Source: Membranipora membranacea
Taxonomy: Eukaryota > Bryozoa > Gymnolaemata > Cheilostomatida > Membraniporidae
Assembly: GCA_914767715.1 (NCBI GenBank)
Contig: OU612071.1
Coordinates: 22,627,681-22,691,680 of the forward strand
DNA length: 64,000 nucleotides
Reading direction: 5' to 3'
Shown here piece by piece: positions 27,582 through 60,250 of the stretch. Both the position numbers and the translations under genes were made by a program. Each line of letters starts with the position of its first letter. Within the stretch, counting starts at the first letter, position 1. The notes below the pieces were generated by a model. The model was given only the letters and a program-made list of their open reading frames with translations. It had not been told where the DNA came from and searched no databases.

Positions 27582-30500
27582 ATGGCGGGGTATTCTCATC
27601 TTGCTACGCTCACTTTGCTGGCAGCTTTTGTCAATGGCTTTTGGTAAGTGAACATTCGTCAAATCTCTAGTCTAAACACTCAAACTGTGTTCTGTTCATC
27701 AGTGAGTCAGAGTTAGATACAAGTCCTGTTTGATCATCAGAAATAAAGGATGCAGCAATGAAAGTGAGTGATCAAATCAGAGCTTTAGAAATACTTGCTG
27801 ATATCCAGTTTATGGTGTATCACAAATGTGAAGGTTCCCTTTAATACAACAAGAGTAAATGAACTAGTCTCTTTAATCTTTTACCATGAACATTTGAACA
27901 TCTAAAAACAAACTATATTTATCCCTAATGATATTTTAGTCACTCTGACTAGCTACTTATTCAGTTTCTATCTGTTTAGGTGTCGAACTTGGCCGAATCT
28001 AGAGTATTATAACATGGATAGTTTCGGCTGGGAAATGTCGGTTATCACAGGAGTTAATAGTCTTGATTTTACAGACAACTTCATGATAGTGAGTAATAGT
28101 ATTATTATCTATGCACCGCTTATTGTTAGATGTTTATGTGTGAAAAACTTTACGGTTCAATAACCTTTAACTTAAATGCCAACTTGCTGTTGACTGGTTA
28201 ACGATAATAACTGCCTGAATCGATTTCTTTTAGCCGATGCGGCATGACCCAATGCAAATCATGGTAGGAAATGGGAATGGATATTCCCCTAGCACTGGTG
28301 AGGGATGCATACAAATATACTACCTGCGAAATAGAACTAAATCAGTGAGAAGTGAGTCAATTGTTTGTTAGAATCATACTTTCTCTGTTTCTTCTCAGAA
28401 ATGTCTAGCATGGTTGACCTCTCTGAATGAGCCAAGAGTGTGTTAAAATTGTTGCAATTAGAAGTAGGAGGTGGCACAAATGTTTAGAGCGCCGGGCTTC
28501 AGCACGAAAGTGTTGAAGGTATTAAGTTCAAGTCCCACTTCAGTCCACTGACTACTTGGATTGTTGGACCCCCAGGTGTGCTTCGACCTGCCTAGAAACT
28601 GAGAGCAATTTGGCACAGATATTACGGGCTCGTCCTTTAGACACACCTCAACTCTACCCATTCTCCAGGATGTGGTGAGTGATGGAACCTTGCGATTTTA
28701 ACAGATTCTTTAACCAACAATTCTCAAATTAATATGTATTGGCTTTATGGCCTACCAATGTTGATTTGTGAAAGACATTGCTTTTCTGTTTCCCGTCTCC
28801 TTGGATCATATTATTGATATGCATCATTGGCTAGCCATCGGGAATGAAGCGGATATAATTAAAAATAAAGTTTTTGGTACAAAAAAGATTTTTTTCTGCC
28901 CTTATTACACTCTCCTTGTCTTGGCAATCAGTCCCGAGACAAAGCAAATAACCAAGGTCAACTGAATAAGAAGTTGCTCTCCCTCAACCACCTAAGGAAA
29001 ACTTATTGGTAAGGATAACTTGGAACTACTGTTCACAGGCAATGCTAGGCTTTTATGTTATTCACATCTTCTTTCCTTCAATCTGATATCCGGTCAGGAT
29101 GCCAGTATTGAAAGAAAAAGGTCTGCTCGAAATCCCCTCCCACCTCCCTTTCACTAAGCTATGTCGTACATCGTTGAAATTCTAACAATTTCATGATGAT
29201 TGTGTTCATTTGTTTGTCATTTCTGCACCAGATTTAACAACATCTAATACTTTGGCTAGTACCCTGGCTACCAAACAACATATACAGCGGCGTTGATCGT
29301 CACTTTCGGGTACAAATGCGTGCAGCGCCCAATATTTTTTCCGCTATAATATGTGACATTATAAGAAAGAAAAAAATATTGTGAAACATGCTCCATTTTA
29401 GAGATTGCCGGTAAATGTTCCCGCCATATTCAAAGTAACTTCAGATACAAGAATGGCTATGGGTTAGCAGCAGAACTGATGTGGCCTGACCATGGTTATA
29501 TGACTAAGGATAGACAGTGGATTCTATTCGTGGATAACCAGAGATGTGCACGTAGGATGAGGACGAGAACATTTGAAGTCTTGACTGTTATAGGTATAAC
29601 AAACAGATGAGCCATAATTTGGTATGCCATATTTCGATTAGCTTGACTCTGAGAAAGGAAGGTTGGGTTTGCTAAGTGGCGCCGTATACCAATTCCTTTT
29701 CGGGATGATAGGCCTCTCTCTATTGGTATACTGTTCGGCACACTCAACATATAAGATGGAGCTGAAATGTGCATGTTTTGAAAATAGGAAATAAATAATT
29801 TTTGGTTCAGCATAGGCGCCATTGAAAACTGAAAGGGACAAGTTTTTGGGAAGTTTTTTTGGTGCTCTAATGCTTATCGATCTCAATTTCTGACTGTGTG
29901 GTTGACAACTATTCTGGAGTTTTTCATGCATTTGCCACTTAGAGCTCAAAAATAATTTGAAACACCTGGTCACTTTAACATCTCAATAGTGTAGATGCTA
30001 GGTCTGAAATGTTTTGCATACAAATTAGATTTCTATCTGGTCAAATCAATTTTTAACAATATTTTGGATTGAAAGAATAAAGGCTCAGGCACAGCTCTGA
30101 AACTGTCTTAATGTGTAGCAGTGATTGATGGAGCTTGAAGTTTTTCTGCCAAGCAGCACCTTGAATATTGCAAATTTTTTTAATTGCTTCATTTTAGAAA
30201 TAAGTGAATAGATATAGCTGAGGATATTATCGTTTAAATATTTCAGTGAATTGCCCTTCGTAGTCTTTGATGAGTGAGCTCTCATATGAAAGAATAACTC
30301 CAATGTGACAGTGATATAATCCCTATACGTTTTTTTTTCTAACTTCCAAATTGCATTAGATGTAGAAACAAGAACATACACGTGGTATAAAGCACTTGTC
30401 AAATTAATTATTACTGTCACTTGGCTTTTTGCTTTGCTGCTGGTACAACAGGAAAATTTGCGAAATATTTCAATGTTATCAGGTAGCTGTCATAATGGAC

Positions 30501-33500
30501 TTAATCATGGTTCACATGGCACTAATCGGAAGGTGATAGGGATGGTATTTCTTGATGAAAAAAATCTTTGGGTCTTCTTCATGAGTTCGGTAAGTGTTCA
30601 CTTGCTACAACAATGGATTACATGTACATAGTTTTGTAGAAATAATTTGAAAATTCATGACAGACTTGCCAGGTCAACCAAAGCTCCCAATTAAATAGCT
30701 GCATACCAGATGTTTGTCAAGATGCCAAAAGCGAGCCAATGGGTGTATATGGGCTGCAAGGGTCACCAGTCATAAAGATTATTACTGCAGGTATCTGCAA
30801 TCAGTATGCACTGAGCCCCTTTTATAACAGTCTCCACACTACAGGTAGTAGAGGGCTAAGGTGTACCAGATAACCAATCAAAAGCTGTATGTCAGGATGC
30901 CCTTCAATGTAAAATTCCAAATATTGATTGCTGCAATAGCCCTTGTACAACATTCATTCACTGACCTTCACAACCCTACCTGTGTCATATGGTGATGGGC
31001 TATTGAATCACATTGCACACCCCTCTATAAATTTATTCAGTCCATGCAGCGAAGCTACAACCTGCACAATGTCTGGTGCTGTAATTGTAAAACCTCAGTC
31101 ACTCTAACAATCAGTTATACGGTAATACGGTACGACTCAACACTGATGCTGACACTGACAGTGTTTTCTGTGGTTAACTTTTAGTAGTGATTCGCCTTTT
31201 GAGCTTTTTCATAATAGCGCTTTACCACAAAGCAATTCTTCTCGGGCACCCAGCTAGTGTGTTGACACAAATTGTGCTGTGTGGTACAGAACCACCGTGA
31301 TCATCTAAGTTTGACAAATTTATACCTCCAGGTAGATCTTCTCTCATTAAGCGAACCTCATTGCTGCCAATATCCTGTTCCAACAAGTAAGATATCTAAA
31401 GATTCCTTGGATGCCTGACTTCTGAACTTGTTAATCAATGAGTCAATTAGGAGTAGGAGGTAGCTCAGTTGGTTTGAGCACCTGCCCGCTGGTGCGCAAG
31501 CTTTTGAGGTCTTGGGTCCGAATCCCTTAGCAGTCTACTGACTACTGGGCTCAATTGACACCCGGGCGTGCTCCAACCTGCGTGCAAACTGAGAGCAACT
31601 TGGCCCCAAATATGGCGGCCGTGCCCTTAAGCCACCTGTATTTCTCTTCGGAACGAGACAAATTTAACCCCCGTCAGGCACTTTGCCAGCATGTTTAAGA
31701 AAATCTTGCCAGCAACTTTAAAGCCATGATATCGGTCATAACTGCCCTAGGTCCACCGCCTACCAATCTTTTGGTAAGCTCAAATCATTCATACACATAC
31801 CACTCACAAGGGATGATGCCAGTCTTCTGGATTCTATTTGGCACTTTGTCAGTATTTCTACCTAGCAGAACATTCCATGTATAGCTTATGACTGATGCAA
31901 CTATGCCTGGCGTCTGATTGTTGATATGGTACACAGACCTTATCGATGCTTCGACTATGAAAATTGTTAAAATAGATTATCATATTATACAGTTAGGTAG
32001 CCTCAGGCAAAAAGCCTTGATATCATACTGAATAAATAATATGAATATTCATTTGCATGTATATTTTCAAGGGACTTTATATTTATCCTTGGAGTGGAGC
32101 TACATGGCGGCAAGTCTCAACTCTTCAAACAAATGTACACAATCACTTTGGCTTTGAACCTGGAATGATCACCAAGGGCACCTATAATAATTTCAAGGTG
32201 TTTCAGAAGTTGGCATATGGTGAGAGGATCATATCCATCCTGTTTCTATAAAATTTGTGATTACATCATCTTGAAACAATCATGCACCACTTCAAAAGGG
32301 TGTAAGAGCTGTGTGACAATTGGGCCGATTAGTTGGCTGTAAATTTCATATTATTGGAACTAGTTTGGCAATATACATTGTATCTTGACGAAAAATTAGA
32401 CAAGAGGAAGAAATGTATGATCAAGTATAGTATAGTATATTAGGTGTACAACATCAGAAATCACAATATTTATGTATGCATACCAGTTTGCATTCGTTGA
32501 ACTGGCCATAACAATATCTTTTTTCATTCTCAAGATTCTGTTGGGAAAAAAAATGAGTGCGAGTAAGGCATAAATAAAAAAAATGGGGCGGTTAACCCAC
32601 TGTGATATATATTGTAGTGCAGACAGGTATTATTGCTGTTAAGAGGATCAGCCCTTGTTAAAACTTCATCATAAAATAAACATGGACGCCCAACCAGATG
32701 TTTTACACCAACAACCCCTGTACTTAGGTGTCCAAAATCAAGAGGGATTGGAACCACCATTTCTTCTTTTAGAGCAATAGAAACAAAAACTTGCACCTTA
32801 ACTTTTGCATAGCTGAATGCATACCAACTTAGCAGATGGAATTATATCTCAGAGAGAAAAACTGGGTAACTCCTGAAGTTCGTAGGTTGTTTGAGCAGAG
32901 AAATTGTGATTTTTTAAACGATAGAAATGATTACCGTAAACTGAAATCTCAAACTCAGAATTCCATCAGACGTGCCAATAAAAAACATGCTCAGGAAATA
33001 GAGCAAAATATCTCTCTCTCGATGCGAACACTTGGAATCAGTTTTTTTAATATATTTGATAAGCCATGTGATGTACCTGTTTTACCATCTCTTTTTCCAT
33101 ATTGTGATGAGTTTCTTAGCGTATTTCACTCTGTGCGGCGTCAAACTGAACCAGAGCCCAGGGCCAGATACTATCACACCCCGTCTACTCAAATCATCAG
33201 CGCCAACCCTTGCTTGACCACTCACTGAACTGTTCAACATGTCGATCAAACAGGGAGGCATGCCTACAGTGTGGAAAATGGCAAGTATCAAACCCATACC
33301 TAAATGTGCTGGTGCAAATGAACCAAAGGACTTTAGACCGAAAGCTCTTAAATCGATTGTCGATAAATGCCTGGAAAAACTAGTTATCAAAAGAATGTCA
33401 TCAAAGCTAAATGACTCATCACAGTTTGCGTGCAAACCAAAAAGGTCAACTGAAGACGCTCTAATCACTTTGATTGACAAGATCGGTGAACCTCTGGATT

Positions 33501-36500
33501 TGAATGCCAAGAACCATGTCAGAGCTCTATTCACCCATTATACAAGTGCCTTCAATACCATCAATCGAAAATCACTCACAGATAAACTCGGTGACTATGA
33601 CGTCCATCCAAACATAGTTAATTTGGTTTATAATTTCTTGACCGACCGAAAACAGAAGGTAATAACATCAACCAACACATCCCAAATCGTCAGCACGTCC
33701 ACAGGGCTGTGTCCTGAGTCCGTTCCTGTTCTCTCTGTCTGTAGCACAGATGCCTTTTGTCCATCAATCAACAACTGTTATGAAAAATGCTGACGACACC
33801 GTTCTACTAGAATATCTTTCTGAAACAACACAAAGTTACAAGAAGAAGCTACCCATCTAGGAATCTGGTGCTTCTCCAACGTCCTTCTTCTCAATGCCAA
33901 GAAAACGAAGGAGCTATTTCAGCAATGTAAGAGGTAACTCTCTGCCAGCACCGTCATTAATCATCAACAATAGCAACATCGAAGTTGTGAACTCATTCAC
34001 CTATCCAGGCAGAGTTTTATCTAATAAACTAGACTTTACACTTTAGACCATCAAGAATACTTACTTGCCAACCTCTACCATCTAGGCATAAACGCGATAA
34101 TAATATGAACGTGTCACAGATCATTTATAGAAAGTGTTATCAGCTACAATCTAGTGGTAGTCTTTAAACATCTCAAATCAGACTCTCATTGAAAACTAAA
34201 ACATCTTATCAGTACTGCATAATACCTAGCCGGCGGTTAATTTTTCCTAATACACAATACCTATGCACATAAACTGAAAAACCAAGAGCCTGAGAATGGT
34301 TGCTGGCAACCATTATGACCAAGTGCTAACATTAACAACGCTTCCATCAGGCAGGTTTCAGGCAATATAATAACAAACTTAGCTACGCCTCAACAGTTTT
34401 AGGGCCTGCTCCGTCAGATATTTGAACACAGTTTTTCGTAAAAAGATTTGAAAAAAAAAATTTACATACAATTATTTATTTCCATATATTGTTTTATATC
34501 CATATATTTTTACATTACAATCAAACTGAGCTTACTTTTAGAGAATATTTTTAGAGAGCATCCACATAAACGTTTTTATTTCTCTTCCTGAGACAATGCA
34601 ATACATACATACATACATACATACATACATACATACATACATACAAAAACGCCATGGCACATGAAAACACCCCATTATTCCCGTGTTACGCCCCTTAAAC
34701 CACAGTAGTCCAATATTCAAACATCATGGTCAAGATGCTCTTTCACATGAGTTTAGCCATATACTACATACTTTCAGATCTGATTTTTACACATGTAAAC
34801 ATGTTGTTGCCTTGAACAAAACTGGGAGCTTATATTGTAAGACTTTATTCAAATCAAGAGGAAAAAATCAACATCAGGCATTTTCTTTTGAGTAATAGGG
34901 AAATAATAGCAAGCTTAACACTTATTTCTGCTATATCTTTCAGGTGTGACTTCTTACGACTTTACAGATATTTCAATGACAAGCGATAATTCTGTAGATA
35001 CAACTAGAATATTCAAGTGGGTTTTATTTGGATCTTTTATGTAATTGGTCACAAGTTGAGGTCAGGGATAATAGTTACTATGGTTGCTTTACCTGAATCC
35101 TGATCAAGTTAATATGCTGCATGTTCGAGCTTATTCCAATGAAGGTTCATGATGTCTCTAGATAACTTGACTGTTACTAAGTTGCTTCTAAATTCTTTCA
35201 ATCAAATTAAATCTTTACTCCTTCTAATAAGTCTTTACCAAACTTGAAGTACAGCTATCACCCATGCGAATTAAATAATTCTGTTTGGCTCAAAGAAATC
35301 TTATTGAGGCTTCAATCTCAAAATTGTCACCTGATTGTTAAAAGTGTTAAACAATTATAGTTAAATAATATGCACAAACTCAGAGTATGAAATTAACGCA
35401 CTAGGTGATGAAGAAGTGGTGACAACACCAATATTTACGCTAGATAATTCATTCATAGCGTGATTTGGTTTGTGCAAATTATTTGCCCTTTACGTGATAA
35501 TACTGAAATTGCAGCCTCATATTATTAGTTTTGAGCTGTACATAATCATTTCATTAGCACACATTTGCCGGTGTGGCAGCAGTAGTTTGAAGATGTATAG
35601 AGAGAGTGTAATAAGGTCAATGAACATTTGCTGAGAGGATATAAGATAAAATTATAAAATTCAAATGGAATCACCATTATTTACTGCTATCATCTTTATC
35701 GCAGCCTGCTCCATTACTCTCATGTTCCTCTAGTCTTAATTGTAAATCTGCCAAAGCACCCTTATTTTAGTTGTACAAATAACTATTCTCTTCTGGGTCA
35801 TTAGCCGTATCTTCGTTTCCATATAATATAAGTGCTGAGTTGATTGCTGTTTCAATAATATTTGTTTTCATCTCACCTTCAATTTGATCAATTTTCTGAT
35901 GTTATTACATCATTTTCATTGTCAATACTTGTAGCTTGCGGAGACCCTATAGCATCAAGAGGACTGACAGAATCAAGAAGTCTGGTAGTGGAGCAATATA
36001 CAATTACAACTTCAGAACAAGAAACTTTAAAATGAGCCCCAGCAATGGTCATGTGTCCCAACATCCATATTACCATGAACTCCTGATGGTCACCGATTGG
36101 AAACTAGCTTCAATCTTTTTACTCAATACTGGGACTGGTTAGTATAAATATCCAATAATTATTTCATCATTGCGATCACTAGTTTTTGTTCGGCATTTGT
36201 TGTAATCTTTCAAGTCAAAATTAGTATCTTTATGCACTACATGTAGTTTATTTGTTTCAGGTGATGTCCGGCAATACTGCAGTCGAGCTACAGGCTCTGT
36301 TTATATTTTTACAACCAGTAATGAACCTTACTGCCGGTTCACATCATTGAAGAGCACCATGTGGGTCGGTGGGTCATCATTGTCTGCGCTTGTGGTGGAT
36401 AGAACAGCATGGTTGATTCATCAAATTATGCTCAGTATGTTCATGTTTAGATTATGTATTCAAATAACTATTCATAGTGATAATCGACGTGCATTATCCA

Positions 36501-39500
36501 CAGCTGAATTGCTGGTAGGTTCAAATGTAAACTAGAGGTGATAAGCAAGAAATCTTGTTCATATTTCTAAATGTGCAGGCATGTTAAACTGAATTGCCAT
36601 TTAGTAATAAAATCAACCTTACCTGGTGAGGCATGTGTGCCCGGGTCAGCACAGGTGTGTTGTTCATACAAGCCAGATTAATTAGATTATTACCATGAGT
36701 GCACAACTTCCTTTGTGGCCCTAATTCCAGCGCTTTGTAAATGGGTTGAGGCAAAGGCAAGGGATATGGTGAAAAAGAAAGTTTATTGGTTTCCTAAATG
36801 GTGACATGTGAGATTTTTGCTTTTATAACAGCTCAAACATCAAGTCAACATTATGCTCGTTCATCAATAGTTCTATGCGATAATCAACTTCTATTTGCTT
36901 CTTTTTTAAGCCAACAATATGGAACAGCGCCACAATAGATGTGATAAATGCTGGCATGCACCAGGATCACCTACGTGTTATGATACAAGGGAGGGTGTCA
37001 ACTGTGTATGCTCAATCGGCTACGAAGGTTCAGATTGTGATATCCGTTAGTTCTCATTGCAGCTACAGCAATTATTGTCGAATACTTGTTCTAACTCATC
37101 CTGTTTCTCATTCCTTTCATCAATCAAATAGACTCGTTGCACTATCACGGTAAATAGCAAATTCAATCTCTTATCTTGTCATAAAAAATACAGATATAGA
37201 CAGATAAAGAAAACCTGTACATGAAAAACTGAATTCACCATGGTATTTTTTTACAGCTATCTGCAGCCCTAGTAAATGCAATGGTCATGGACAATGTACA
37301 ACGGATGTCACCAATAGGGTTATATGTATGTGTACTGCTGGCTGGAGAGGTGAAAGGTGCAATATACAGTGAGTTCAAATTTTGTTTGGGAAATACTTTG
37401 TATCCTTTGTTAAGTTGTTGCTAATAACGGTCCTTTTTGTAATATAGCTATCAAATTCATAATCTCTGAAATCTGCTTTGATCTTCTACATAACAACTGG
37501 AACAAACTAGTACATACATAGTTTGTGATGTATACTTGCTCCATCATTTTCAGAAGATATTTTTTGTTGGACTATGTGAAGAACACAGTCATGCAGATTG
37601 GGGTAGAGCACACTCCACCATATAATGCTCGGGTAGGATCTGGATTTCTCTTGGTAAGTTACACCGATTGCATGAGCAATCAGATGATTAACTATCATAT
37701 TATCAACAAAGCAGGCACTGAAAATGCATATTATGCTAAGTGGAAGTAATTATAATTAGTGAACATTGTTACTTTAATTATTATTTGATTATAGAAAAGT
37801 ATTCTTAAGTTTTTTTACATAACACAAGAGATGATGCTGGATAGCTGTTTGAGAAGAGAATTATTTTCTGAATTTCTATTTTATAGAAGAAGCTAGGTGA
37901 CCCATCTGTGCTTATTGTTGGTCACAGACAGTGGGACAGAGCTGGAGAGGGTGCAATTGGCTATTATCGTCTAGGGAGAATGAGCAATTTCGTTTGTAAG
38001 GAACATAGTTTTTTTGCATATCTCTTTTGCAATGCATAGTAACATGAAGAAGCATTCACATGTGATTATCAGATTCCCCAAACTTGGTATGGCTATAAGA
38101 TGCGTTGGGATTGATTGTGAGACTGAGAAAAAATCAATGTGTGATCTCGACTGAACTAGATAATTATCTGTTTCGTTGATGGTTAGGAAATAAACAATGC
38201 ATTTACTTTCCAAAGATAACATTAAATGCTCATAGAGTCAAGGTTTGGCTACACACACCGCTACGCTTGGTCAACATGCAGCACAGGCCTATCCATAACC
38301 AGTCAGACTCCTTTCGATAACAATTCCATTTGTGTCTGATAAGGTTTCCTATCGTCCAACATTAACTGATCAAACTATTCATTTTTCCTTATTAAATAAG
38401 ACTTTTGCTTTGTGTCTTACATCGTAATCGCTGCAGAACTGCATGGACCAATTTGGCAACTGATAACCGATTTTAATTTAAGATCTTGCTGGAAACTTGG
38501 AGCGGAGGTGGGGACCAAGCCAATACAATGATGGTATCGGTACTGAAGCACATATGGTTGTTCCATTGTTTGCATATCAGCAGTTAGATGGAGAGTGGTT
38601 GCATTTTGTTGACACATGGTCATGCGTACGCCGGCTTAAGCTTAAAATTGAACTTCAAGTACTGACATGGCTTGGTTGGTTCTTTTGTAGCACTTGGTCA
38701 TTTCCATCGTGTTTCAAGCAAAACTTATAATTGATATATACATGAAGTCACGCGATCATAAATGCTACAATTTTCTGATGATGAGTGAATATTGTTATTG
38801 GTCAGCACGTATACAGTAGAATTGAGGCATGGTCAACGTTATTAAAAGAAGCTGATTATTACTTTCCTTGAGCCCAACCATTGCCCTCTCTCTCTCTTCT
38901 CTCAATATACTAATATGCTGAGAAGGGTAGCTGTATGTGTTGGCAGATCTTACAGATACTGATGTTCATGATCATGTAATAGAGGATAGACAAACTACTC
39001 CTTGCTTATTGGTCATTCATCAAATACTCATTTCCACTGCTAGTGCACGCGTATCTGCTATTTGACTGTAGGTGTAGGACGGTGTGGGAACGGAACCTTA
39101 GATATGAGCCAATATGGAACCCGAAGAGAAGTAACAGGCATGACAATGTTGGAGTTCTCTAACCGCAAATTCTTTGTTTTCTCGGGCCCATTTGTGAGTC
39201 AATGAAGCAATTTTATTCTCATAGTGAGGAGATTGGTTTGAATCTAGCTTGATCGCACATTCTTTACATTAAAATCTTCTTTTGAGAAATAATTCAAATA
39301 ATTATTATAAATATGTACATCTCTTATGCAAATATGATCATAGAATGAAAACAGAGATGGGCTTAAATAGTACAGGCATGACAATCAGAATTACTCAGCT
39401 TCTTAAAAATGTTTTGTTCTCTTTGGGTTTCAAATTGCAACTCTTATTCTTGAATTTCCATGAAAGAGATTTAATGTATTCCACAGGTTGGTGATTAATA

Positions 39501-42500
39501 AATCTACTGTCAAGTTCCCTTATTTCTTTGTTAGCATTCTTTTTCTTTTCTACTGAGAAAAATAATAGCAAAGACAATCAAATTGATGACTAGAGACTGC
39601 AGATTTCAAATGTATGACAGTTTAATTTGTTTTGGGTGATTTGAGATATTGATTAATATCATGGTATTAAACATGTTTATTCAACAATTATATCATTCTT
39701 TTTTAAGTCGATTTTATTAAGCGTTTGATTAGATTTTCCTACCACATACCAATTTGAGAGTCCTCTAATAACGATCAAATCTTTAAAGATGTGGTATTGC
39801 AGTATGAATAGTGTTCTCTTCATTTAATTTTAGGGTATTTACCTATCTTCAATCTATGGAAGTAACAAAAGATTGGTTGTTTCAGCCAGTGAGGCCAGTG
39901 CTTACTCAGATGTTATTTATGGATCATTGACGAAGGAAAGTGCCATAAACTCTAATATGGTTTACCATAACACGCCATACGGTATGTAAACTTTAAATTA
40001 TATTAAACTTATGGTTCATTTTTGTCAGAAGACATTTGCTATTTCAGTCCCGGCATCAAAGTAGAGAAAATAAACTTTGGATTATCTTCAATTTATGGTC
40101 TATTCTTGTGAGAAGAAATGTACACGAAAATATACAAAACTAGTCACATAGAACGACTTCCCTTATGGGATTGCCTGCTTTCATTCCGTCCGCACCACTT
40201 TCTGTATCTCAACTCTGCAGTAAGATTCTCAATGACATGTTGGAGTTGCATCACCATAATAACAGTGAGCATGCAGTATTAAACAATTGTGACTTGATTA
40301 CAGATGTGTCACTTAAATTTATAAAGCTATACTGTTGATATGAGTAATACTGAAAATTTATAGAGTTTATATATTGTCGATGTTTTGTGTGTGAGTTTAC
40401 TCAGCCAATTTAATTGTAGAAGCTATGTATAGAACAATGTAAATAGTGAGGATCTTGTCTCTACAGCATCCTATTGAAAAAAACTCCTCGAATAAATTTT
40501 TTAGAAACAATTTTTTTTCTTCACTTCAATCCCAATTGGCTACCGTTGCTTGGCGAAACAGGTATGTTTTTTTTGAAATTTTCAGTTACCCATCGTAAGT
40601 AGAGTTACCTCTAGAACCAACTGAGTTAAAAGGCACATCAATAACTGACTTTTGCCAAACTTCTCCACCACAGCAGTGGCTTAGGTCTTTGTAAAAACCT
40701 GACCAGGCAGCAATGCAGATCCAATTTAGAGGATCGCTCATTGAATGAAAAACTCTTATATCCATTGAGTTTCCATAGCAGAAATTAATTTTCCCAAACT
40801 GGAAGGCAAAACCCACTCACTACCATTAAAAACACTGCAACACCATAACAAACACTGCTGAACTTCTTGCAAAGGGATTCATATAATAATATAGCAAAAA
40901 TTTTTGATGTTATAGCTCACAAGAATTTTATGTCGTGTCCATAAAATCCGCTCTAGACATTCTGCTTCTCCTTCTATTTATAATTAATTAACATCTTCAG
41001 TAAATCAAACATTAATCTGATAATTACCGTTAAATTTTCAAACAATTCATAAATGTTGTCTACATTTGTAGACTTTTACTTTTATCAGGTATTTATAATT
41101 CCCTGTAACATAAAAATGGCACTACAAAATTAAAAAGCATAGGCGAAGAATTTTACTACCACAAACTTCTTGAGACCTTGGACAATTATTGCAGGTGATG
41201 AATCACACTCTAGAAATAACGATGGCTTTACTAAAGGAAAATTTCATATTATTGTACAACAGTCGATGACCCCTCAATTGCGCATTCCATTAACAAATTT
41301 ACTTCAATATTGAAGTCAAAAATGGGACCTAAAGTTAAATTTCTAGTTATGCGGAGAAATCTAGAGAAAATACCTTGTTAAACCATTTCTGACACAGCTT
41401 GGCTTTGCCTAGCAGAGCCACCAGTCAAAAATTTAAATAGAGAGTTGTGACATCAAAATATCTAACCAGTTGCTTTGCATGGAGTTATATGAGCTCTCAA
41501 AATGTAGGGAGTATCTTCTTTCCCAGCCATCCACTATTACTGATGACACATGTTTTTGTTGACCAATCAGGTGTCTCTAAAATCTAGCTAAGATCAAACA
41601 TTTTTATTAGTTTTGGATCTCAGCTAGACTTAAAAGGCACCTGATTGGTTAAAAACAACATTATTGTCATCACTAATTGTTGATGACTGGGGAAGAAGAC
41701 GCTCCCTGCATTTTGAGAGCACATATAACTCCAGGCAAAGCTACTGGCTAGATATTTTGATGCCACAACTCTGTATATTAATTTTTGACTGGTGGCTATG
41801 GTGGGCAAAGCCCAGCTGTGGCAGCAGTGGTTTAACACCTCACTGTTTATTGATGTTCAAGGCTGGCTGAGGGTAAGGTATAGCATTTGCATTGTAATCA
41901 TTGAATGCGAAACTTGCTAATTTAAGGGCATGTTCAGTGCACTGAAATGCAAAGGAACACAACTCCCAATGTGTTCGTTTAGTAGTGTAGACTTGCGATA
42001 CAGAAAGCGGTGTAGGCTATGCAGTCATTTGAAAGTATTTCCGTTCCAATATTAATAGGAATCACAGCGTATGACTTTGATCGCGTCACTGAATTGGGCA
42101 TTGAACCATCTGTCACCAGAGTTGCAAGGTGAGCAAACACTTTTACAAATAGGTATTTATTTTCTCAACCAGCCTCGGTAAATGTCTTTCAGTTCACCCA
42201 CTCTTTGCATTGGTTTTAGATGACCATATTGGCTAAAATCGAATTGTTAAGTAACTCACCATATTCAAAAGTAAAATGGGTGGTTGAAGGTCACGGCAAC
42301 AATGTCTGTGCCGAGTCTGCTCTCAGTCACTATGCAGGTGGGAGTACTTGTTGGGGCTCCTGCAGTCCCTGTTGTTAGTGTGGAGCAGTGGGATTAGAAC
42401 TCATGACAATGAAGATGGCATAGTGGTTTATGTTGGAGCTCATGACTACAAATTTATTGTGATTTGATTGGACTCTAAAATAGCATATAGTGGTAATTGG

Positions 42501-45500
42501 TTCAATGAATTGCACATTAAAATGGTAAACAAAAGACTGATAAGGTGGCATAAAAAATGGCGTTAAATTTTCGTTTTGTTGTTAAAAAGTAGGCCTAGCC
42601 TGTTCAAAATATACAGCTATGCTAAGAATGATACCACAGAGAGTTAGGAATGTGTTACTCATGAAAGCAATGAAAGCGTATGAATATCATATCAATACAT
42701 TAAAAATTAAAATTATGAGACTTTCCAACTGCCAAAGAGAAATTTCTTATGATTTGTGGCTACACAAAAAGTTAAAGTTTTCTGTCTGTCTGAAACTTTC
42801 CTTAAAGTGAAAAAGCCAAGTCATCAGTTTCATTTAAGTTGTTATCAGAGTGTAAGGATGGATAGACCTGCAAAGAAGAACAAGGGTGGTGGTCTACTTT
42901 GTTTCTTATTGCAGAAATAATTGAACTGACTAAGCATATCACAAACGTATGCGTTAAATTTGTTGCTTTTTTTTAGTATGTGATATTTCTTCAGAATTTT
43001 TGACTCTTATCGGAAGCTTTTTTTGAAATGACTACAGCAGACACGCATACTTGCCAACCTGTACTCATAAAGCGTTTGTAAACGCTTATTTGACACTAAT
43101 TGAGTTTTAAACGCAAAACGCTAGTTGTACTCATTTATGGTTTTCCAAACGCCTGTTCATCTAATTAGGCAATCAAAAACGCATCTTTTATCTTTAGTGT
43201 TTACTTGGTTGTCATGGTTAAATAATAGTCTAAAAATCTGGTATTGGCTGCAGAAAACCATGATGTTGATTTACAGTTGACTTTTTACCTGTCCAAGTTT
43301 TGCATGAGCCAAATTGCAACTTTTCTTCAATGAGACACAACATAACTAGTAATCCATTGTAGAATATGGTGGTTCTGCCAACTTCAACTTTTCTTTAATC
43401 AGAGTAACAAAGTTGTCTACCTCCTTGTTGGGGTGAGATAACTCAGATCTCCTGCCCCAGTGTTTTAAGGGCAAACCAGGGAGGATGGGCAAACAGGGTT
43501 TCAAATAGCCTGTCTTGTCTAGACAGGCTAGGTTACAAACAACATCTCATTTATTATTAGCAGATTGCACCTTACAACGCAAAGGGAAAAAGACTAATGT
43601 TGAGTGATCTGCACTCCTATGCTACTAAGGACTACTTACTGTGATAATAGCATTTTTTGGGGCGTTTTCGGGTCATTTGAGGCACCCTGGAGTTTTGTAC
43701 TCATTTTTAAGCATTTTGCAAATTTTTGTACTCATTTTGGAAAAATTTGGTTGGCAAGTCTGCAGACAAGATAAATGTATTAAAAGTTTAAAACTTCCAT
43801 CAGTTATTTAAACCAATCATCATGTAAAAACATTCTATTTTCAGACTAAAGCCATACACAGCTGAGATACATCAGTACTATGATACAGGGGCGATTCATA
43901 GCTATGACAATAATCAGGAGGCGAGTTTACGTGACATCGGAGGAGTTATTGAGATTAATCCCTCAATCCCTAACCTTTTAATGGTAGCTGATAAGGGCAA
44001 AGATAGTGTAATACTGTATAACATAACTACCGGTACGCTCCGTGTTCCTGATCATTCATTCATGAATCATTAAAAATTGTACATCTTGTTATGCTACTCT
44101 TTGCATGCATATGAGTATCCGCATCGGGAGTTGAAGCTGAAGAGGGTCCATTCCAGAGAGAGAGAGTGATGCGTTATTGTTTGTGAAGTTAATTTTTTTT
44201 AAGTGTGCCTCATTTATCAGCAAGTAAATCAGCTAAAATCTTCAACCTTTTTTTCATAGGAAATCTGTTGGGAGTTTGCAGGAAACATAGTTCTACAATA
44301 ATAACATCAAGTCTAGAGACATGCAGATGGTCACTGATGCAGAGTGCAATGTGGCTAACTCCTACTACAGCACTGGTGTCAGACTATAAATATAGAGGAA
44401 GGATTTATGTCATCAACTTTCGTAAGTCGACACAAGATACCATGAGTTTTATTGCAACTCAGTAAGTCAAGTTTTATGCAGCATTGAACTATGCAGCGGA
44501 CCATATAAATAGTTATGCATAATATATTTTGCTGAAACACCTCCAAATAGTACATGCAAACACAAACACAATACTCTAAAGTAACACTACAAGGGGAAAA
44601 CAGCTCACAGTCCTGTATTCATAGCTGTGGCATTCATCTTACACTACGATTTTACGTTGCATTTTCTACACTAGGTATTTCTATTTTATCGGAGTTGTTC
44701 TCTCTCTGAATGGTCACATAACTCTATAAATACCCTTCTTTGACCCTGCATATAATTGTTGTCAGGGCTCTCAACCACTCAGATTTATCCCGAATTACAA
44801 AGGTTTATGGTTTAAACATAGACAACTCAGGGTATTTTCGACTCTTCTTTTCATGGGGAAGTCGTCTCAGCATGGTCCTCTGTATGGTCTACTTTTATGA
44901 TTATATGATATGATATTATATTATGATGTTGTAATATATGAAACATAAAACCAGGATGCAGTTAGTAATGATTATTATGATGATGATGATCTGAACTCTG
45001 AAAAAAAAACAATGTAATTCACTCGCAGCGCCCTATAAATTGTTTCTAGACTTCGGTGACCGGACCTGTTACGATGGCTTACAGAGCAAACACATCCTCA
45101 GCTGCTTATGAATAGAGCATTTCCTCTAGGTATATTTAAAATATTAAGTGTATGGAAAATTTGACAAACTGTTGTGATGTTTTAATAAATTGAACCTAAC
45201 CAGGGCCGTAGCTAAGAAAGAATGGTAGGGGAGGCAAAAGAACTAGACGAGTGCTAAGTATCACAGGGAGGGGGCTGTAAGCTCCCCCAAGCAATTAAAG
45301 GCCTATATTAAGCGATTTGAAATCCCAGAGACGCTGATTCTGACATGGATTATTCAATTACAGTGGTTTTAGGCCACTGTATTTAGCATTCTAGGGGAGG
45401 CAGTGCGTCGCTGGCTCCTCTTGACCATGGGCCTGCTAACCTCTAATATAAATTAAACTGCTCTGTTAGGAAGTTGTGTGAATTGTTTGATAGATTTCTA

Positions 45501-48500
45501 GCCTAGGCCTATTGGCATCTGGCTGTATTTGGTGTCGAGCTGATGACATGAGGACACATACAATCAGGCACTTGGAGAGTGAGATGATCATATGATCACA
45601 ACTTAAGTTGCGGGGTCGCTAGTAAACATGTGCTGTTTGCCCTAATAATTAGATCAGCACCAGTAAGGAGATTTGACACCAGGATATTGGGATAGGTTTG
45701 ATGTGTTCCCTTCTTGGTACTAAATTATGATGTGTCTGCCGATGATATGTGATGTGTTATTTGGATAATCAGCAGAGTTGCTTCTACCAATGTTCAGAGT
45801 CAGTTATTTTAACTAAGTCATTTGCATCAAAAACTGCCTACATTTGCCGTGTTTGTGTCAATTTTGTTTGTTGCAAAGTCCACTGTGCCGATGCAATAAA
45901 CTACCTATTCAAAGCAAGGAGCACCTGCTGTCCCTTGTCGAAAGTGAATGCATAAACAAAAATACTAAGTCATGGTGAGTAGACGATAATCAGGCACAGC
46001 CTATCCCATGGATTAATGGTGGAGTCTAGTCAATGTGATAGAAAAGACCAATGCAGTGGCAAAACTTCTTGTGGATTATAATCTGGTACACAAATTACAG
46101 CTACCTATGTTCTAGTATGTTAATTGGTGTTTACCCAATTATCAGCTTAGTGAATAATGCCAGGTGGATGAAAGGTGAGAGATTTAATTTCGTTCTGAGA
46201 TTAGCAGCTCTACATCTGCTATAGTTATGTGGTATTTTTCATCAATAGCGAAACTGATAATGTGTCCTTTTTGTTTCTTCCTCGATTATCAGGTGTGTAA
46301 ACACCATACCATTTCTGAAATTGGCCCAGATTTTCTGCTGAAGTTGTGGTATCACTGGTAAACTTGGTAAAGAGGGTGTGTTGTTTGCCCTTAGAACTAC
46401 ATCATCACACAGTAAGGACACACAACACAGGTTTAGGGATAGGACTGTTCTGTCTGTATTCTTGATACTCAAATCTGGAGATGTCTGTCCATATTATTAG
46501 GTTTGCTAGTTGAATAATCAGGAGAGTTTTTGCTACCGATGTCAGATTATATCAACAAAGTTATTTGCATCAAACAACTGCCTATGTCTTGCCATGTTTT
46601 GGTCAGTTTAGTTCATTGCCCAGACCGCTCTGCTGGTATTTTATACTGGCTACTACAAGTGAAAGCGTAAACAAAAAGACTTAGTCAAGATGAGTAGATC
46701 ATAATCAGTCACAGCCTATTTCATGGATTAATGGTTAGGTCCACAAAGGACAATGCATTGACAAAAACTTGTTGTTGGTTATGATCAGGTATGTTAGTTA
46801 AATGTAATGCATTTTTACTTATTGCTATTCGCACAGTTATCAGCTCAGCAATTATCAGCTCAGGGAATAACATCAGCTAGATGATTAGTGAAAGATTGCA
46901 GTTACCTGCTTTAGTTATTTGGTATAATTGGTATCAAAACTTATAAAACTTATGCATAATCATCTTCCTCATTGTTTCTCCCTCAATTACCAGCATAATA
47001 AATACTGTACCAAATCTGGAATTGGTCCCAGATTTGCTACCCTCAGCATTAGCTTTGGCATTAGTAACATTGTATAGCCAAACTTAGCGTAGAAGCTGAC
47101 AACACAATATTAACATGAATAGTTTTGCTGGAGATCTAAGAATTCCAGAATTTAAATCTTCTGTTCGTATCTTTGACCCCTAAGACTTAAGGTTCTACCG
47201 TTTGTATAAAGTTCTGACCAAAGTATTGGAGTCCAGACACCTTCTTCGACAGTGATAGCATACAGACATTACCACCAATTCAATTACAATTTACCTGCTG
47301 TTATAGATTAGGATCGCTTTTTCGGATATTTAGAACTTCGCAGCAATCACCATCATGGGTGAAAATGTAAGTGAAAATGACCGAACACTCTGTGCATGTG
47401 AGTGAGTAATAGCTCATACTCGTAGCTAAATCTTTGTCATGCACTTATTTTAAAATATTTACTAAGCAGATCAGTAAGCCTTAAGATCACTCATTAGGCT
47501 AAGTAGTTTCTCTTTGCAATGTGTCATCTCTAAGTATCCGTTTGTGATTGAGTGAATTAAATTTGGATGGTTGTACTACTAAAAATATGATACTTGATAT
47601 TAATATCTTCAGTAATAAGTGACACTGATAAATAGTTAAATTTTTAATGTTGCATACGAGTAGGCTACCAAGCTAGCCCTCTAAGTGAGTAAAGGATTTA
47701 AAGAAAAACTGCCTGGTTTGACTAAATTATAGTACCCCACCTGGTCTTAATTCTTACCCTCAAGGATTCTGATTTTGCCGAAACTTATTCTACGGCCCTT
47801 GGTGTTGTCTGGTCCAAAATTTCATGTAATCATTTTTAAAATCAAGCTTCCTTCACATGAGTTAACAACCCTGCATGAAGTAATGTCAGCAGTTTTGCCA
47901 TGGGAGAAAAGGTTAGGGACAGCAAGACGATCAAGATCTATCGGGGAAACCACATGTCCTTCAAATATGCAGTGTGATTCTTTAAGTTTTCTGAAGTCTT
48001 GTTTGAGGGCTACCCTTTCATTGACGGAGTGCTATTGAGTGAAAACCAAAGTCGGTACCTGCGTATGAGGCCCTAAGCGGCCATGAATAATATGCCTTGC
48101 GGTTAGAACTTTTCTCATAATTTGCACATCGTGTTGAAAACAATTTACTACCTGTGCATAAAAAGAAATTCCACTTGACTCTCTATTTATGTTAAAATCG
48201 TCGTGCAGGGCGGTATCACAGTATACGGTCACACCAGCCCGGTCTCACCCAAATGCTGCATAATACCTGGCCTATTTCACTCATTCTTAATATTACGTAA
48301 ATGAGAAACATAGGATGATGTGTGTATTGACATTGACAATTTTGTACCTACATGAATAGACAGACAATCACCAAATCTATCCATCTCATAGGGATCGGAA
48401 ACTCACGCCGGTGAGTTGTATCAGCCGAAAATATTCGAAGGTGTTGTCAACAACCCATCCGTCTTTTAACACAAATTGAACCCGCTAATCTGTGATTTTC

Positions 48501-50224
48501 TCTTGTTCTAAATCAGGAAGAGCTTAATAGTTTCTTCACCATAAAATTTAGCTGTGTCTAATGCTGAATATAATTGATTTCTCTCAGATTATCACATGGA
48601 TTTAAAGTGGAATATTAATGTCATGCTCAATTCAATCAACAAGCCCTTGATTGTATGATAAGATAGATCATAACAAAAAAATCCCTGATTTCTATTCAGG
48701 AATGACCTCACCTGTAATGTTAAATGATAAGTCATTCTTTTTTTAAGTTATCAATTGTTCAGATAGCTCGTCTAAGTAATTCGATCAAAATTGTAGCGAC
48801 GATTTTATTCTTTTGGTAATCTGCTTATGAACTTTCACCATAGACACTCATCTAAAACCCGGCCAATTTAATTTTTATGGCCCTAAATTGCTCTCTAGGC
48901 TTAAAGTGCCTCCCCCCACAAAACCTTCCAGCTGGTTTTACTTTGACGCTTCAAGCCCTCAAGACAGTCAGGATTGGCAGGGTAACAAATTGAAAGCTAG
49001 AAAAAACACCCTCTCATCATGATAGAATATGGTTTGCGATGAATTATTTTGCAAATCAACTTAATGCCGATACATACAATTACTGTGAGTGTTTCAGTAA
49101 ATGGCAAACTAAATAATTGAAAATTCCTTTGACAGAGTGCTGTAGTGGTTTGATTGTTGGATTGATGCTGGACTTGCTTGGTTTTGTGACTCCTTATCAG
49201 CTTGAATAGACTCTAATGTTTGTTTATTCACGTGGGGACAACTCCTAATTCAATTCGTAATAATCTAGTGTAGACAACGCATCATAAAATCGTAGTGTTA
49301 GCACTAGACAAGCCCAGAGTGCTCTGATTTACCATTTAGTAATAAGTCTAAGTCTTCATCGCCAAGAGGGTTTTCCCCTCTATTGAAATTGAAATTGGTT
49401 TTATCAAAAATTATCCTTTCAACATAAGCAAGATATAGGCTGACACATTCAGGTAAATTGAGTTTTTTCATTCTCTTCTAAATGCAGGGGTTGGTGCCGA
49501 TGACTGTGCCAGCGCGCCTTGTGGTCCTCATGGAATTTGTTCTGACTCATGGCGAGGAAATGGCTTTGAATGTTTATGTCATGACGACTGGTCTGGCTCA
49601 ACATGTTCAATATGTAAGTTCAAATTTTCCTCAATACTTGGAGCGTTCAAATCAAAAACATGTGTCTGCAGATCTAATGGCTGAATAAAATTCAGGGGTC
49701 TTATCACTCGCCATCCCGAAGCATGGTCGGCAAAGTATTAGTGCTTTATTAGCACATACCATCATGTTTACATGTTCTCCTGATTTGAATCATTGTTCTA
49801 TTTTCTTTGGTTACAGATTCTCCAAGAACTGGTGAGTGCTTATGACAATATTACTGTACCTAGGAGTACCAATTGGTCTCTACTATATTTATCAGAACCG
49901 GAGTGCAACAAATTTTGACCTGAAACTTGTTTATCCAAAATTATTTGTCTACTCAAATTTGTAAGCGTTGCATGTATCAGAACCCCAATGATACTGTCTG
50001 TAAGCAAATTTTGAGGATTTGTATGCAAACATGACCTGTAAATGGTGTTAAATGTGACTGTAAACTATTTTAATTATCTAGGCGCAGTTTTTCCTGTACT
50101 CGGAGCCTTTGATGAAGGTGGTCATCTGATGAGCATGGGCACATCAAGGAGTGAGACCTTCTCAATCTTAATGTTCGCTGCTGCTTTAACTTTCTGTTAC
50201 CTTCATTTATCTGAACACCATTGA
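27582..50224 (+). CDS. Secreted or membrane-anchored protein: two NHL-like propeller modules, three EGF-like domains
   Basis: Twenty-two exons: 27582-27643, 27980-28088, 28234-28351, 29402-29593, 30483-30589, 32072-32219, 34944-35016, 35935-36137, 36261-36434, 36911-37045, 37257-37368, 37554-37653, 37887-37995, 38483-38674, 39072-39193, 39834-39981, 42068-42128, 43845-44032, 44260-44421, 49488-49613, 49817-49831, 50082-50224. The sum is 2799 nt (932 aa plus TGA), and the phase fits at every junction. Residues 1-19 form a signal peptide (MAGYSHLATLTLLAAFVNG). Residues about 21-395 are module 1, about 402-477 two EGF-like domains, about 478-838 module 2, about 840-880 a third EGF-like domain. 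The tail ILMFAAALTFCYLHL ends six residues or fewer before the stop, suggesting a GPI signal or a membrane anchor. It should act at the cell surface or in matrix. I recognise no named gene. Exon 21 is only 15 nt. Weakest calls: the donor at 36434 and the acceptor at 36911. Confidence 0.85.
28461..28665 (+). mobile_element. tRNA-derived SINE, copy A
   Basis: Shares with copy B (31451-31645) the order gtaggaggt at the head, a box-B-like gttcaagtccc, the stretch cagtc(c/t)actgactactt..g, gtgtgctt/gcgtgct..acctgc and aaactgagagcaa.ttgg. Its box A is degraded. It lies in intron 3 of the propeller/EGF gene. Confidence 0.75.
31451..31645 (+). mobile_element. tRNA-derived SINE, copy B
   Basis: The head is tRNA-like, with box A tagctcagttggtttgagc (31461-31479) and box B ggtccgaatcc (31515-31525). 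The non-tRNA body is shared with copy A (for example aaactgagagcaacttggcc). It lies in intron 5 of the propeller/EGF gene. The plus-strand tRNA-like part cannot fold as a full tRNA, so I do not call a tRNA gene. Confidence 0.8.
32836..33830 (+). pseudogene. Non-LTR retrotransposon (CR1/L2-like) reverse transcriptase fragment
   Basis: It lies in intron 6 of the propeller/EGF gene. A first frame (32836-33228) ends a linker region. A second (33239-33793) holds RT core blocks: IKPIPK..KDFRP.AL.SIVDKCLEKLV, QFACKPKRSTEDAL, ALFTHYTSAFNTI and LTDRKQKVI..STSTG. The catalytic ADDT block follows at about 33790 in another frame, so a frameshift separates it. The PQG block is altered (LCPES). No endonuclease is seen. 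It is a dead, 5'-truncated insertion. Confidence 0.85.
34597..34644. repeat. (ATAC)n microsatellite
   Basis: About eleven perfect copies of the tetranucleotide catacata, in intron 6 of the propeller/EGF gene, about 0.8 kb downstream of the LINE fragment. Confidence 0.95.
36911..37368 (+). other. Two EGF-like domains (exons 10 and 11)
   Basis: Exon 10 (36911-37045) gives C..C....C..C.C...GYEGSDC (CDKCW..PTCYDT..VNCVCSIGYEGSDC). Exon 11 (37257-37368) gives CSPSKCNGHGQC..VICMCTAGWRGERC. Both have the six-cysteine spacing and the closing C-x-C-x(5)-G-x-x-C. Exon 10 is phase 1-1, the usual shuffling-competent class for extracellular modules. Confidence 0.9.
41390..41830. mobile_element. Foldback element (~435 bp, ~205-bp arms)
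   Basis: The left arm (about 41394-41605) and right arm (about 41607-41826) are inverted copies over nearly their whole length. Examples are ccaccagtcaaaaattt / ttaatttttgactggtgg and gacatcaaaatatctaacca / ctagatattttgatgcc. There is almost no loop. It lies in intron 16 of the propeller/EGF gene. Arms differ at about one base in eight, so this is an old insertion. It carries no coding capacity. Confidence 0.88.
43055..43762. mobile_element. Possible TIR element with ACTTGCCAACC ends
   Basis: ACTTGCCAACC near 43059 is mirrored by GGTTGGCAAGT near 43750. Both ends are followed or preceded by tgtactcat in the same orientation. The inverted repeat is only 11 bp and I see no target duplication, so this is tentative. 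It lies in intron 17 of the propeller/EGF gene. Confidence 0.3.
45201..45435. mobile_element. hAT-like MITE
   Basis: It begins cagggccgtagctaag and ends ccatgggcctg, so CAGGGCC/CAGGCCC form short inverted ends. The sequence ctaac sits on both flanks as a possible target duplication. Internal tggtaggggaggcaaaa and ctaggggaggcagtgcg are typical of CAGGGsCGTAGC-type short elements. It lies in intron 19 of the propeller/EGF gene. Confidence 0.55.
45749..46760. repeat. Old tandem duplication (~770 bp period)
   Basis: The run gtcatttgcatcaaaaactgc .. gagtagacgataatcaggcacagcctatcccatggattaatgg (about 45815-46020) recurs as gttatttgcatcaaacaactgc .. gtagatcataatcagtcacagcctatttcatggattaatgg (about 46555-46735), with many substitutions. 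The open frame at 45749-45955 is inside it and is not shared by both copies, so it is not a gene. It is within intron 19. Confidence 0.7.
46770..49487. other. Remainder of intron 19, no additional gene
   Basis: Opposite-strand open frames at 47775-48038 (+) and 48032-48232 (-) have no supported family match, although the right half of the plus frame is vaguely like the end of a LINE pol protein. I see no exon of the propeller/EGF gene here. The phase from 44421 to 49488 closes without one. Confidence 0.5.
49488..49613 (+). other. Third EGF-like domain (exon 20)
   Basis: Phase 1-1 exon of 126 nt encoding CASAPCGPHGICSDSW followed by FECLCHDDWSGSTC, with six cysteines in EGF spacing. It is followed by a 15-nt exon and then the C-terminal exon with the hydrophobic tail. 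Confidence 0.9.
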
Positions 50225-51221: not shown

Positions 51222-51796
51222 GCTATAATAGTAATAGTAATAGTAATAATAATAGCATAGCCATTTCCACCCTTGTGCTCAGACAATGAAGAAGTTCATC
51301 ACTTACAAACCTACAGCCAGAAATAATTCTACTGTGATCGGATATTTATACTTCTCTAAACAGATACTTTATTCTTCTCCAGTTTATTCCAAGATCTGCT
51401 CTGGACTCAGGTAATTTTCATTAATTTACGGTATGTTCATTCTCATAAGATAACAGTTAATGGCGCAATTATGCAATTTAAGTCCAGCTAAGGTGATGGT
51501 ATGAAGTAGTCTTCATTTTCGAGCTCCATATTGCTACTAAAACAACTCATAAATGAATCGATCTAGATTATGATCTAATTAATGATCTTTGGGCAGCTAA
51601 GGTGGTGATTGCAAGCTTCAGTATGAAACAAACTCAAAGTCCACAGAGATGTTCATATAAGAGATTTTTAGAGCTTGACTGGAAGGCGCGTGAATTTCAT
51701 TCACCTTCAAAAGTGGCATGATATTAGAAATATGATTCGTAGGCATTGCTAGTGGAAAGGCGAACTAGAAAAGTAATGATTGATTGATAAACTGAA

Positions 51797-52075
51797 TGGG
51801 GTTAAGTAACGGAATTTTTGCACATGACACTCTGTTGCTGGCAGACTAGGACAGTAGTGATTCTATAAATGAATTCTACTATGTGTTTGATGATTGTGTA
51901 ATTTCATGCTTTGGAATGTGACCGCATCTGTATGAGGATAAGTAACAGACTTGTTGCACATGACCCTCTGTTGCTAGCAGACCAGCACAGTAGTGACTCC
52001 ATAAATTTATTCAACTATGTGTTTGATTATTCTGTAATTTCATGCTGTGGAATGTCACCACATCTGCACTGGCTT
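51797..52075. repeat. Tandem duplication, ~137-bp period
   Basis: Two units share gcacatgac(a/c)ctctgttgct(g/a)gcagac, agtagtga(t/c)tc(t/c)ataaat and atgtgtttgat.attctgtaatttcatgct. The open frame at 51911-52099 is an accident of the second unit. Confidence 0.85.
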
Positions 52076-52902
52076 AGCTATGTGATTAGATGCACATGAT
52101 ACCATAATGTTTCAATCAAATATGTTGTATCAAAAATTTGAGGACGACTAAAATTTTGATACTATTCATGGGCAGGAAGGTGTTGTTTTAAAGTTGCAGT
52201 ATGATCTTATTCTGAGCCCACCGTGCTTCTTATATTACCTTTGTGTGGAGGTTCACCGGTTCACCGTAGGGTGCCTGGTATTGAAGCATATTTCCACTCT
52301 AAACTTGTTTTCTTGAGTTCTATCCTCAAATTTCTAGGCTTATTAGTAGAAATATGTTTGTCATGATAGACCGTCGCTGTTTGACTGTTGATTTCAGACT
52401 CAAACAACATTGACTATGATCAGGATTGTAATAATTTTAGTATGTAATGGGTCATAGCTCACCTATGCACGGAATTTGTACTGAAATATTTTACCTCAAC
52501 TCTCGGATATCAGTTGAATGGACCAGGGGGGATTTCTAGCCTTCAATTGTGGCCCTGCCATTTTTTACTGTCCCGTGCAGCTTAGCTGTGCACCAAGGCC
52601 ACATAGCGCCCGAGAAAGCCCAGCCGGGTCTTAGCCCCCCAGCGGGGCAGAGGTTTTGGAGGAGTGTCTTAGGTGAAAGTTAACAAGCTAAAAGAATAAA
52701 GCAGTCAACCTATATATGCAGCATGGCTACACACTGTCAGAGCTGCCATTTTGATTAGGTGGGCATGAGCTGTTGCAACAGAAGTGATTACTGATAAAAA
52801 TAATCACTTGACAATTTACATGACAATTGTTGGCCGACATTAGGTTATTCCTGAAAACACTCAGTTAACTCTTGACGCAGCCATCCCTTATCGGCTTTAG
52901 GG

Positions 52903-56899: not shown

Positions 56900-57516
56900 C
56901 AGTGGTAAACAGTGGTCAGATACATACACAAGTATGAGTAAAAATATTTTACGTTTGAGATTGTGTATTGCCTAATTTCTAATATCCATCCTGTAATAGG
57001 TTGATAGCATCAAAACCCTTATAGTCGAGATCCAAGGGTCAACATCCATGTTGAAAGTCTGAAAGCTGAGATTCATACATTATCGAGTAGAAGTGTTATA
57101 TTATGTATTCCACCCTCAGAACAGGAATCACAAGGGGTTCTTCTGTTTATTTTGCTGTTTAATATTTTGCAATTGATGACCTTGATTTTTGTTGTCATCA
57201 GATTTATGTAAATTGACATGCAAATAATGATTACACTTTTATTTTTTGAGCTATCAATTTTGAATGCAAAACATCTTTTTTTTTACCACTTTCATTGCAC
57301 CAAATTTGTTGTATTAACAGACATTTAGGGTCAGGAGTTGAGTTGTCCTTGAATGACAAGGTTATACTTGATATTTAGCATTAAAAAAGCGAGATGAACC
57401 CTCGTCTTACACACAATCACAGCAGGAGCAGAAATCATTGTTTTTTATTGGAAAACTCACTTTCATGAGGAGAGGGTTAATACAAACTCCAAGTAACTGT
57501 CGGAGGAGATTAATTT

Positions 57517-58257
57517 TTGATTGTTAGATATACAAATATAATAAAACGAGGAACCAACTACTCCAACACTGTGAAATCCGCTATTATAAAACCACTACCC
57601 AAAGTAAAAAATCCACAAGAACTGAAACACTATTATCATCAATTTGCATATAGATCAGACCGTTCTACACAAGATGCCATTCTCTGCTTGACTACCACAG
57701 TAACCACCAATTATGCAAGATGCTTATTTCTAGACTTTTCGTCAGCCTTCAATACAATCAATGTCTCCAGTCTCATATCACAACTCCAGCACCTCGACTC
57801 TGCTGTCACTGAGTGGATATCTAGCTTTCTCAGTGACAGAGTACAAAGAACTATGGTAGACGGCAATCTATCTCGACCCATCAAGACAAACACTGGTACA
57901 CCTCAAGGCTCCGTTTTAAGTCCTCTTTTGTTTTCCATATATACGGACCGGATTACATCTGAATTGAGCAATGTTACCATAATCAAGTATGCTGATGACA
58001 CCTGTATCAGTGGCTGCATTTCTAATCAACATGATCTAGACTCATACTTTAACGAGATAGACAAGATTTCTAAGCAATGTACTGATCATGATCTTTTATT
58101 GAATGCCAGCAAAACTCAGGAAATATTATTTTCTACTCAACGAACTAAGCCCCATACCCCTCCTATTGTTTTAAATGGTGAAAGCATTACTATGTGTGAC
58201 AAAGTCACTTATCTTGGTATTATGTTAGATCAAAAACTCGCCAGCTATATCTATTGA
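57517..58257 (+). pseudogene. Non-LTR retrotransposon reverse transcriptase fragment (CR1/L2/Rex1-like)
   Basis: An open frame of 246 aa with RT blocks in order: IIKPLPK, then HQFAYRSDRSTQDAI, CLFLDFSSAFNTI, TGTPQGSVLSPLLFSIY, IIKYADDT (the catalytic YADD), LLLNASKTQEILFS and VTYLGIMLD. The stretch between KNPQELKHYY and HQFAYR is about 60-90 aa too short: the palm block with the RP..L/SIxxKxxE motif has been deleted. The core catalytic sites remain. It ends at 58257, where it runs straight into an unrelated transposase sequence. Confidence 0.9.
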
Positions 58258-60077: not shown

Positions 60078-60250
60078 ATAATGGGGACATCTAAGTTACG
60101 TTAACCTCGATTATGGGGACATGTAAGTTACGTTAACCCCGATTATGGGGACATGTAAGTTACATTAACCTCAATTATGGGCACATCTAAGTTACCTTAA
60201 CTTCGATTATGGGGACATCTAAGTTACGTTAACCTCGATTATGGGGACAC
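60078..60250. repeat. 32-bp minisatellite, ~5.5 copies
   Basis: The unit is ATTATGGGGACATCTAAGTT plus ACGTTAACCTCG, repeated in direct orientation from 60078 to about 60250. Variants at a few positions (ATG/ATC, CCC/CTC, GGCACA) show the copies have drifted. There are no spacers. Confidence 0.95.

Follow-up and report, generated by a model that had tools for sequence, protein, structure and literature searches.

A gene of 22 exons in a 64-kb stretch of the Membranipora membranacea genome (the whole of the DNA analyzed here, referred to below as the window) encodes a 932-residue protein of extracellular type, in which one large module is present twice and is accompanied by EGF domains. This much, which had been proposed in an earlier note made from the DNA letters, is well supported. 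We further consider it fairly probable that the product is a cell-surface or secreted protein, that its two modules are NHL-like propellers, and that together with the EGF domains they form an ectodomain used in adhesion or ligand binding.

Rebuilding the gene model by script gave coordinates and a length identical to those of the earlier note, which had described 22 exons with closing phases and a product of 932 aa. The model extends from 27582 to 50224 with a CDS of 2799 nt (932 aa plus the stop), all 21 donors are GT and all 21 acceptors are AG, every phase closes, and the spliced frame contains no internal stops. The previously described order of signal peptide, M1, EGF, EGF, M2, EGF and hydrophobic tail was likewise recovered, the signal peptide by eye and from hydropathy. 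The parts of the gene are as follows.

27582..27643, + strand: exon 1, with the start codon and a signal-peptide-like stretch at aa 1–20 (the 15-mer beginning at aa 7 has a mean hydropathy of 1.61)
27980..36434, + strand: exons 2–9, module M1, aa 21–395 (rebuilt model, M1/M2 alignment and junction match)
27980–28088, 28234–28351, 29402–29593, 30483–30589, + strand: M1 exons 2–5
32072–32219, 34944–35016, 35935–36137, 36261–36434, + strand: M1 exons 6–9
36911..37045, + strand: exon 10, EGF-like domain 1, six cysteines at aa 406–438
37257..37368, + strand: exon 11, EGF-like domain 2, with the best stretches of Pfam EGF and EGF_Teneurin
37554..44421, + strand: exons 12–19, module M2, aa 478–838 (rebuilt model, M1/M2 alignment and junction match)
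37554–37653, 37887–37995, 38483–38674, 39072–39193, + strand: M2 exons 12–15
39834–39981, 42068–42128, 43845–44032, 44260–44421, + strand: M2 exons 16–19
49488..49613, + strand: exon 20, EGF-like domain 3 (cysteine pattern and weak PDB EGF matches)
49817..49831, + strand: exon 21, 15 nt, from the rebuilt model
50082..50224, + strand: exon 22, linker, hydrophobic C-terminal tail and stop

With leave-one-out codon scores the frame of the model is preferred in 20 of the 22 exons, the exceptions being exons 11 and 20, both of which are EGF exons. When stop codons are ignored the model frame is preferred in 14 of 22, so that codon usage alone lends only moderate support to the gene model; scored in this way, all 22 exons are above zero in their own frame. 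Exon 21 is the least certain exon of the model and is optional by phase, which is also kept if this exon is skipped. A tblastn comparison of the 932-aa protein with the 64-kb window at E values up to 0.1 matched only the gene itself, including cross-matches between exon 4 and exon 14. Rfam at its gathering thresholds and a tRNA scan gave no matches.

Elsewhere in the window, positions 2788–5832 hold about four tandemly arrayed units at a spacing of 699–860 bp. One 300-nt block of the array is 92–98% alike in four copies, another has three alike copies and one at 69%, and each unit contains a similar open reading frame of 78–92 aa, of which the copy at 5379–5651 has no Pfam match at E values up to 0.01. 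Parts of a gene for a major facilitator superfamily transporter lie on the + strand at 9756–11309, with a PF07690 match at 10485–11306 (E 5.7e-16) and a second piece at 9756–10040 that is below the cut-off (E 0.0035). Two + strand open reading frames at 18112–19749, each with several cysteines and the first with a hydrophobic signal-peptide-like start, have no Pfam match at E values up to 0.01 and perhaps represent another secreted protein. Reverse transcriptase pieces (PF00078) are present at 33218–33787, inside intron 6 (E 1.3e-7), and at 57514–58251 (E 7.8e-28), a piece of a Mutator-type transposase (PF00872, E 8.8e-8) at 58229–58840, and tandem repeats at 51792–52099 (136 bp, about two copies) and 60081–60249 (32 bp, 5.3 copies).

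The proposal that the same module occurs twice was borne out by comparison of the two copies. M1 and M2, cut for alignment as aa 21–402 and aa 478–841, align across most of their length with 28% identity (blastp E 5e-27), and their local alignment scores 259, whereas 1000 shuffles averaged 37 and never exceeded 64. The exon structures agree as well; exit phases are 0,1,1,0,1,2,1,1 in both exons 2–9 and exons 12–19, each unit is entered at phase 2, and two exon pairs, 4 and 14 (192 nt) and 6 and 16 (148 nt), are equal in length. All seven internal junctions have the same phase and fall within three alignment columns of each other, five of them exactly, and at most three matches were obtained in 20,000 random junction placements. 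These seven matched junctions are strong evidence that the 16 module exons are real and that an eight-exon unit has been duplicated. With the exon structures of the two copies matched in this way, the module exons are more secure than is usual when a gene is predicted from DNA only. Judged from the divergence of M1 and M2, the duplication would be ancient. Because the EGF exons directly behind the modules (exons 10 and 20) are both phase 1-1, the copied unit may have been the module together with an EGF domain. Two pairs of cysteines are kept in both modules (M1 145/163 corresponding to M2 595/616, and M1 344/362 to M2 791/806), which suggests disulfides in an extracellular fold.

The EGF-like domains of the earlier note were confirmed by Pfam, by PDB matches and by a cysteine-pattern scan. 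Pfam EGF (PF00008) scores 29.4 bits against a cut-off of 21.5 and EGF_Teneurin (PF23106) 38.6 bits against 24.3; each has three stretches at an E limit of 10, the best being in exon 11 (aa 443–474 and aa 445–477, respectively). The EGF cysteine pattern occurs three times in a six-frame scan of the 64 kb, in exons 10, 11 and 20 and always in frame, and the protein shows both the six-cysteine pattern and the Pfam match of an EGF-like domain. In the PDB, a Notch1 EGF match at aa 414–477 spans exons 10 and 11 (E 2.3e-9), and the exon 20 region has weak matches to EGF chains at aa 841–880 (E 0.098 and above). Inspected by eye, the three EGF-like domains contain no calcium-binding EGF signature. Pfam matches to EGF_TEN, EGF_2, Pox_T4_N, GPR128_N and hEGF fell below cut-off and were set aside. 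The C-terminal tail is borderline hydrophobic, with a best 19-residue hydropathy mean of 1.60 at aa 911–929, and is a putative GPI signal or transmembrane segment. The protein contains three N-glycosylation motifs.

The modules had also been described as NHL-like propellers, to be checked by profile search and structure prediction. What stands of this is a weak profile similarity to NHL domains that lies above controls on average; but no Pfam family, and hence no NHL repeat HMM (PF01436), matches M1 or M2 at E values up to 10, and the single-exon structure models are of low confidence. An NHL profile built from the NHL domains of SOQ1 and 92 of 120 listed SOQ1 relatives was compared with the module alignment using hhalign, giving a score of 24.2 (P 0.019) across exons 8–9 and a further alignment, scoring 18.7 (P 0.12), that runs from exon 3 into the beginning of exon 5. 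The score of 24.2 was reached by two of 200 column shuffles, and the reversed alignment scored 14.3. Taken singly, 93 NHL domains scored a mean of 19.4, a median of 19.0 and a maximum of 33.1, although, being related sequences, they do not amount to independent trials. Both controls, 37 E. coli proteins (mean 14.7, maximum 19.7) and 74 N-terminal non-NHL parts of the same NHL proteins (mean 16.1, maximum 22.2), scored lower on average but overlap with the NHL domains, the best E. coli score of 19.7 exceeding the NHL median. TolB and Pgl, which we take to be propellers, were outside the best 12 of the 37 E. coli proteins.

An NHL-repeat HMM built from 295 windows gave 2.9 bits for M1, 0.2 bits for M2 and 2.4 bits for reversed M1; at least five of 1000 shuffles of each module scored higher, with maxima of 4.5 and 5.5. 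Within the NHL-aligned stretches, LLMVxD and G-x-G...A...P are conserved in both modules. Two-row single-exon structure models had a mean pLDDT of 40.6 for exon 14 and 55.4 for exon 18, too poor to decide the fold, and the exon 18 model consists of five beta-strands at low confidence. Foldseek, run with the exon 18 model only, returned 105 matches at E values up to 10, the best of them mostly non-propellers, and none at E values up to 0.001. The internal repeat signal of the module is marginal and was reached by two of 60 shuffles. On balance we regard a beta-propeller fold of the module as likely, and on the profile similarity an NHL-like one is plausible. In the PDB the module profile matched only two sequences, both virus capsid chains (E 0.16 and 0.18) that we judge not to be relatives.

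Searches for homologues gave 4579 candidates for the whole protein, none at E values up to 1e-3, and 2445 for the module alignment, none at E values up to 10, in a database that includes nr/UniRef plant proteins. This search requires shared exact five-residue words, of which M1 and M2 share none, and is insensitive at such divergence. Pattern scans of viral and prokaryote contigs, which are non-animal collections and may omit records from the window's own genome, gave 18 and 71 matches respectively, none of them confirmed. Given the word requirement and the viral and prokaryotic nature of the contigs, the lack of relatives says little as to whether the protein is undescribed, as the earlier note had suggested, and other animals may well have homologues that are already annotated. 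Among the literature matches listed, none announces this protein, and the module is an orphan in that no family matched it in the searches made.

Tandem propeller-EGF units ahead of a membrane segment are the plan of LRP4 and LRP5/6, and in LRP5/6 the propellers bind ligands, according to PMC3843708 and PMC6966886 (for ligand binding, PMC3843708). The layout of our protein is therefore of a known kind, and the earlier statement that no named gene has this order is too strong as far as architecture is concerned. The order M1-EGF-EGF-M2-EGF would agree with the YWTD rule of an EGF domain directly after each propeller if the modules are propellers. The protein resembles LRP4, LRP5, LRP6 and the EGF-precursor receptors, all of YWTD propeller-EGF type, in having large modules in tandem with EGF after each, a signal-peptide-like start and a C-terminal hydrophobic tail. 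Pro-EGF has an order similar to the LRP plan, and a YWTD propeller is about 260 aa long. A divergent member of this YWTD (LDL-receptor class B) group, that is, an EGF-precursor or LRP relative that has drifted past recognition, is nonetheless improbable. The order would be that of LRP4 and LRP5/6 if the modules are propellers (PMC6966886, PMC3843708), but Ldl_recept_b is absent from the Pfam results for the whole protein and the modules at E values up to 10, as is LDL-A from the Pfam results, and no LRP or nidogen chain in the PDB matches the module profile at E values up to 10. The module, at about 370 aa, is also longer than a YWTD propeller, and the tail, if transmembrane, is followed by only about four residues, unlike LRP-type receptors.

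That the module has some other, non-propeller all-beta fold, its NHL-like motifs having arisen by chance or convergence, we regard as unlikely, if less so than a YWTD origin. It would agree with the lack of any relative, family or credible structure match for the module, with the weak NHL HMM scores and low-confidence models, and with the lack of significant fold matches; against this, few shuffles reach the NHL profile score, NHL domains score above two control sets on average, and both motifs are conserved in the two modules within the aligned stretches. Least probable of all is that two adjoining genes, or a pseudogene, have been joined in error. The weak point would be the 5-kb intron 19, across which exon 20 is linked to exon 19 through phase alone, and reading on from exon 19 meets a stop after 44462; the evidence from duplication leaves exons 20–22 outside. 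However, the junctions of both modules are matched, M2 is entered at phase 2 directly from the second EGF domain, and the spliced frame is free of stops.

The module is weakly similar in profile to NHL propellers of SOQ1/NHLRC2 type, the alignments taking in G...A...P and hhVxD stretches, and differs from them in having no HMM match, extra conserved cysteines and a fusion to EGF domains. In teneurins the EGFs precede a single NHL domain. Our protein is like them in its EGF domains, with EGF_Teneurin above cut-off and the longer EGF_TEN below it, and in the pairing of EGF with NHL if the modules are NHL, and is unlike them in its signal-like peptide, its two modules and its domain order. No YD/RHS family appears in the Pfam results at E values up to 10, and the type II and YD features of teneurins were not found. 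PMC6428715 describes teneurins as type II proteins, with the NHL and YD region within one super-fold, and reports them only from bilaterians and one choanoflagellate clade.

Under the NHL-like propeller reading that we prefer, the protein would be at the cell surface, either GPI-anchored or single-pass, or secreted, and would carry a beta-rich module twice, with one or more EGF-like domains behind each copy. The module would most likely be a six- or seven-bladed beta-propeller with blades like NHL repeats, and its two conserved cysteine pairs would be putative disulfides. Going by the architecture, the two propeller faces may bind ligands or partner cells and the short membrane tail may anchor the protein; by analogy with LRP-type receptors the EGF domains would be packed spacers. 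A soluble form is conceivable, because read-through of intron 19 continues the open reading frame from exon 19 to 44462 and then to a stop, ending the protein soon after M2.

It is possible, if on the doubtful side, that this receptor family reached the LRP-like tandem propeller-EGF layout independently, with an NHL-derived propeller bearing its own disulfides in place of the YWTD propeller. If the module is not an NHL-type propeller, the two diverged copies of an unmatched domain provide a seed for a profile. If it is one, then different propeller families have given rise to the propeller-EGF receptor plan on more than one occasion, and there is an extracellular module, so far lacking a profile, to be described.
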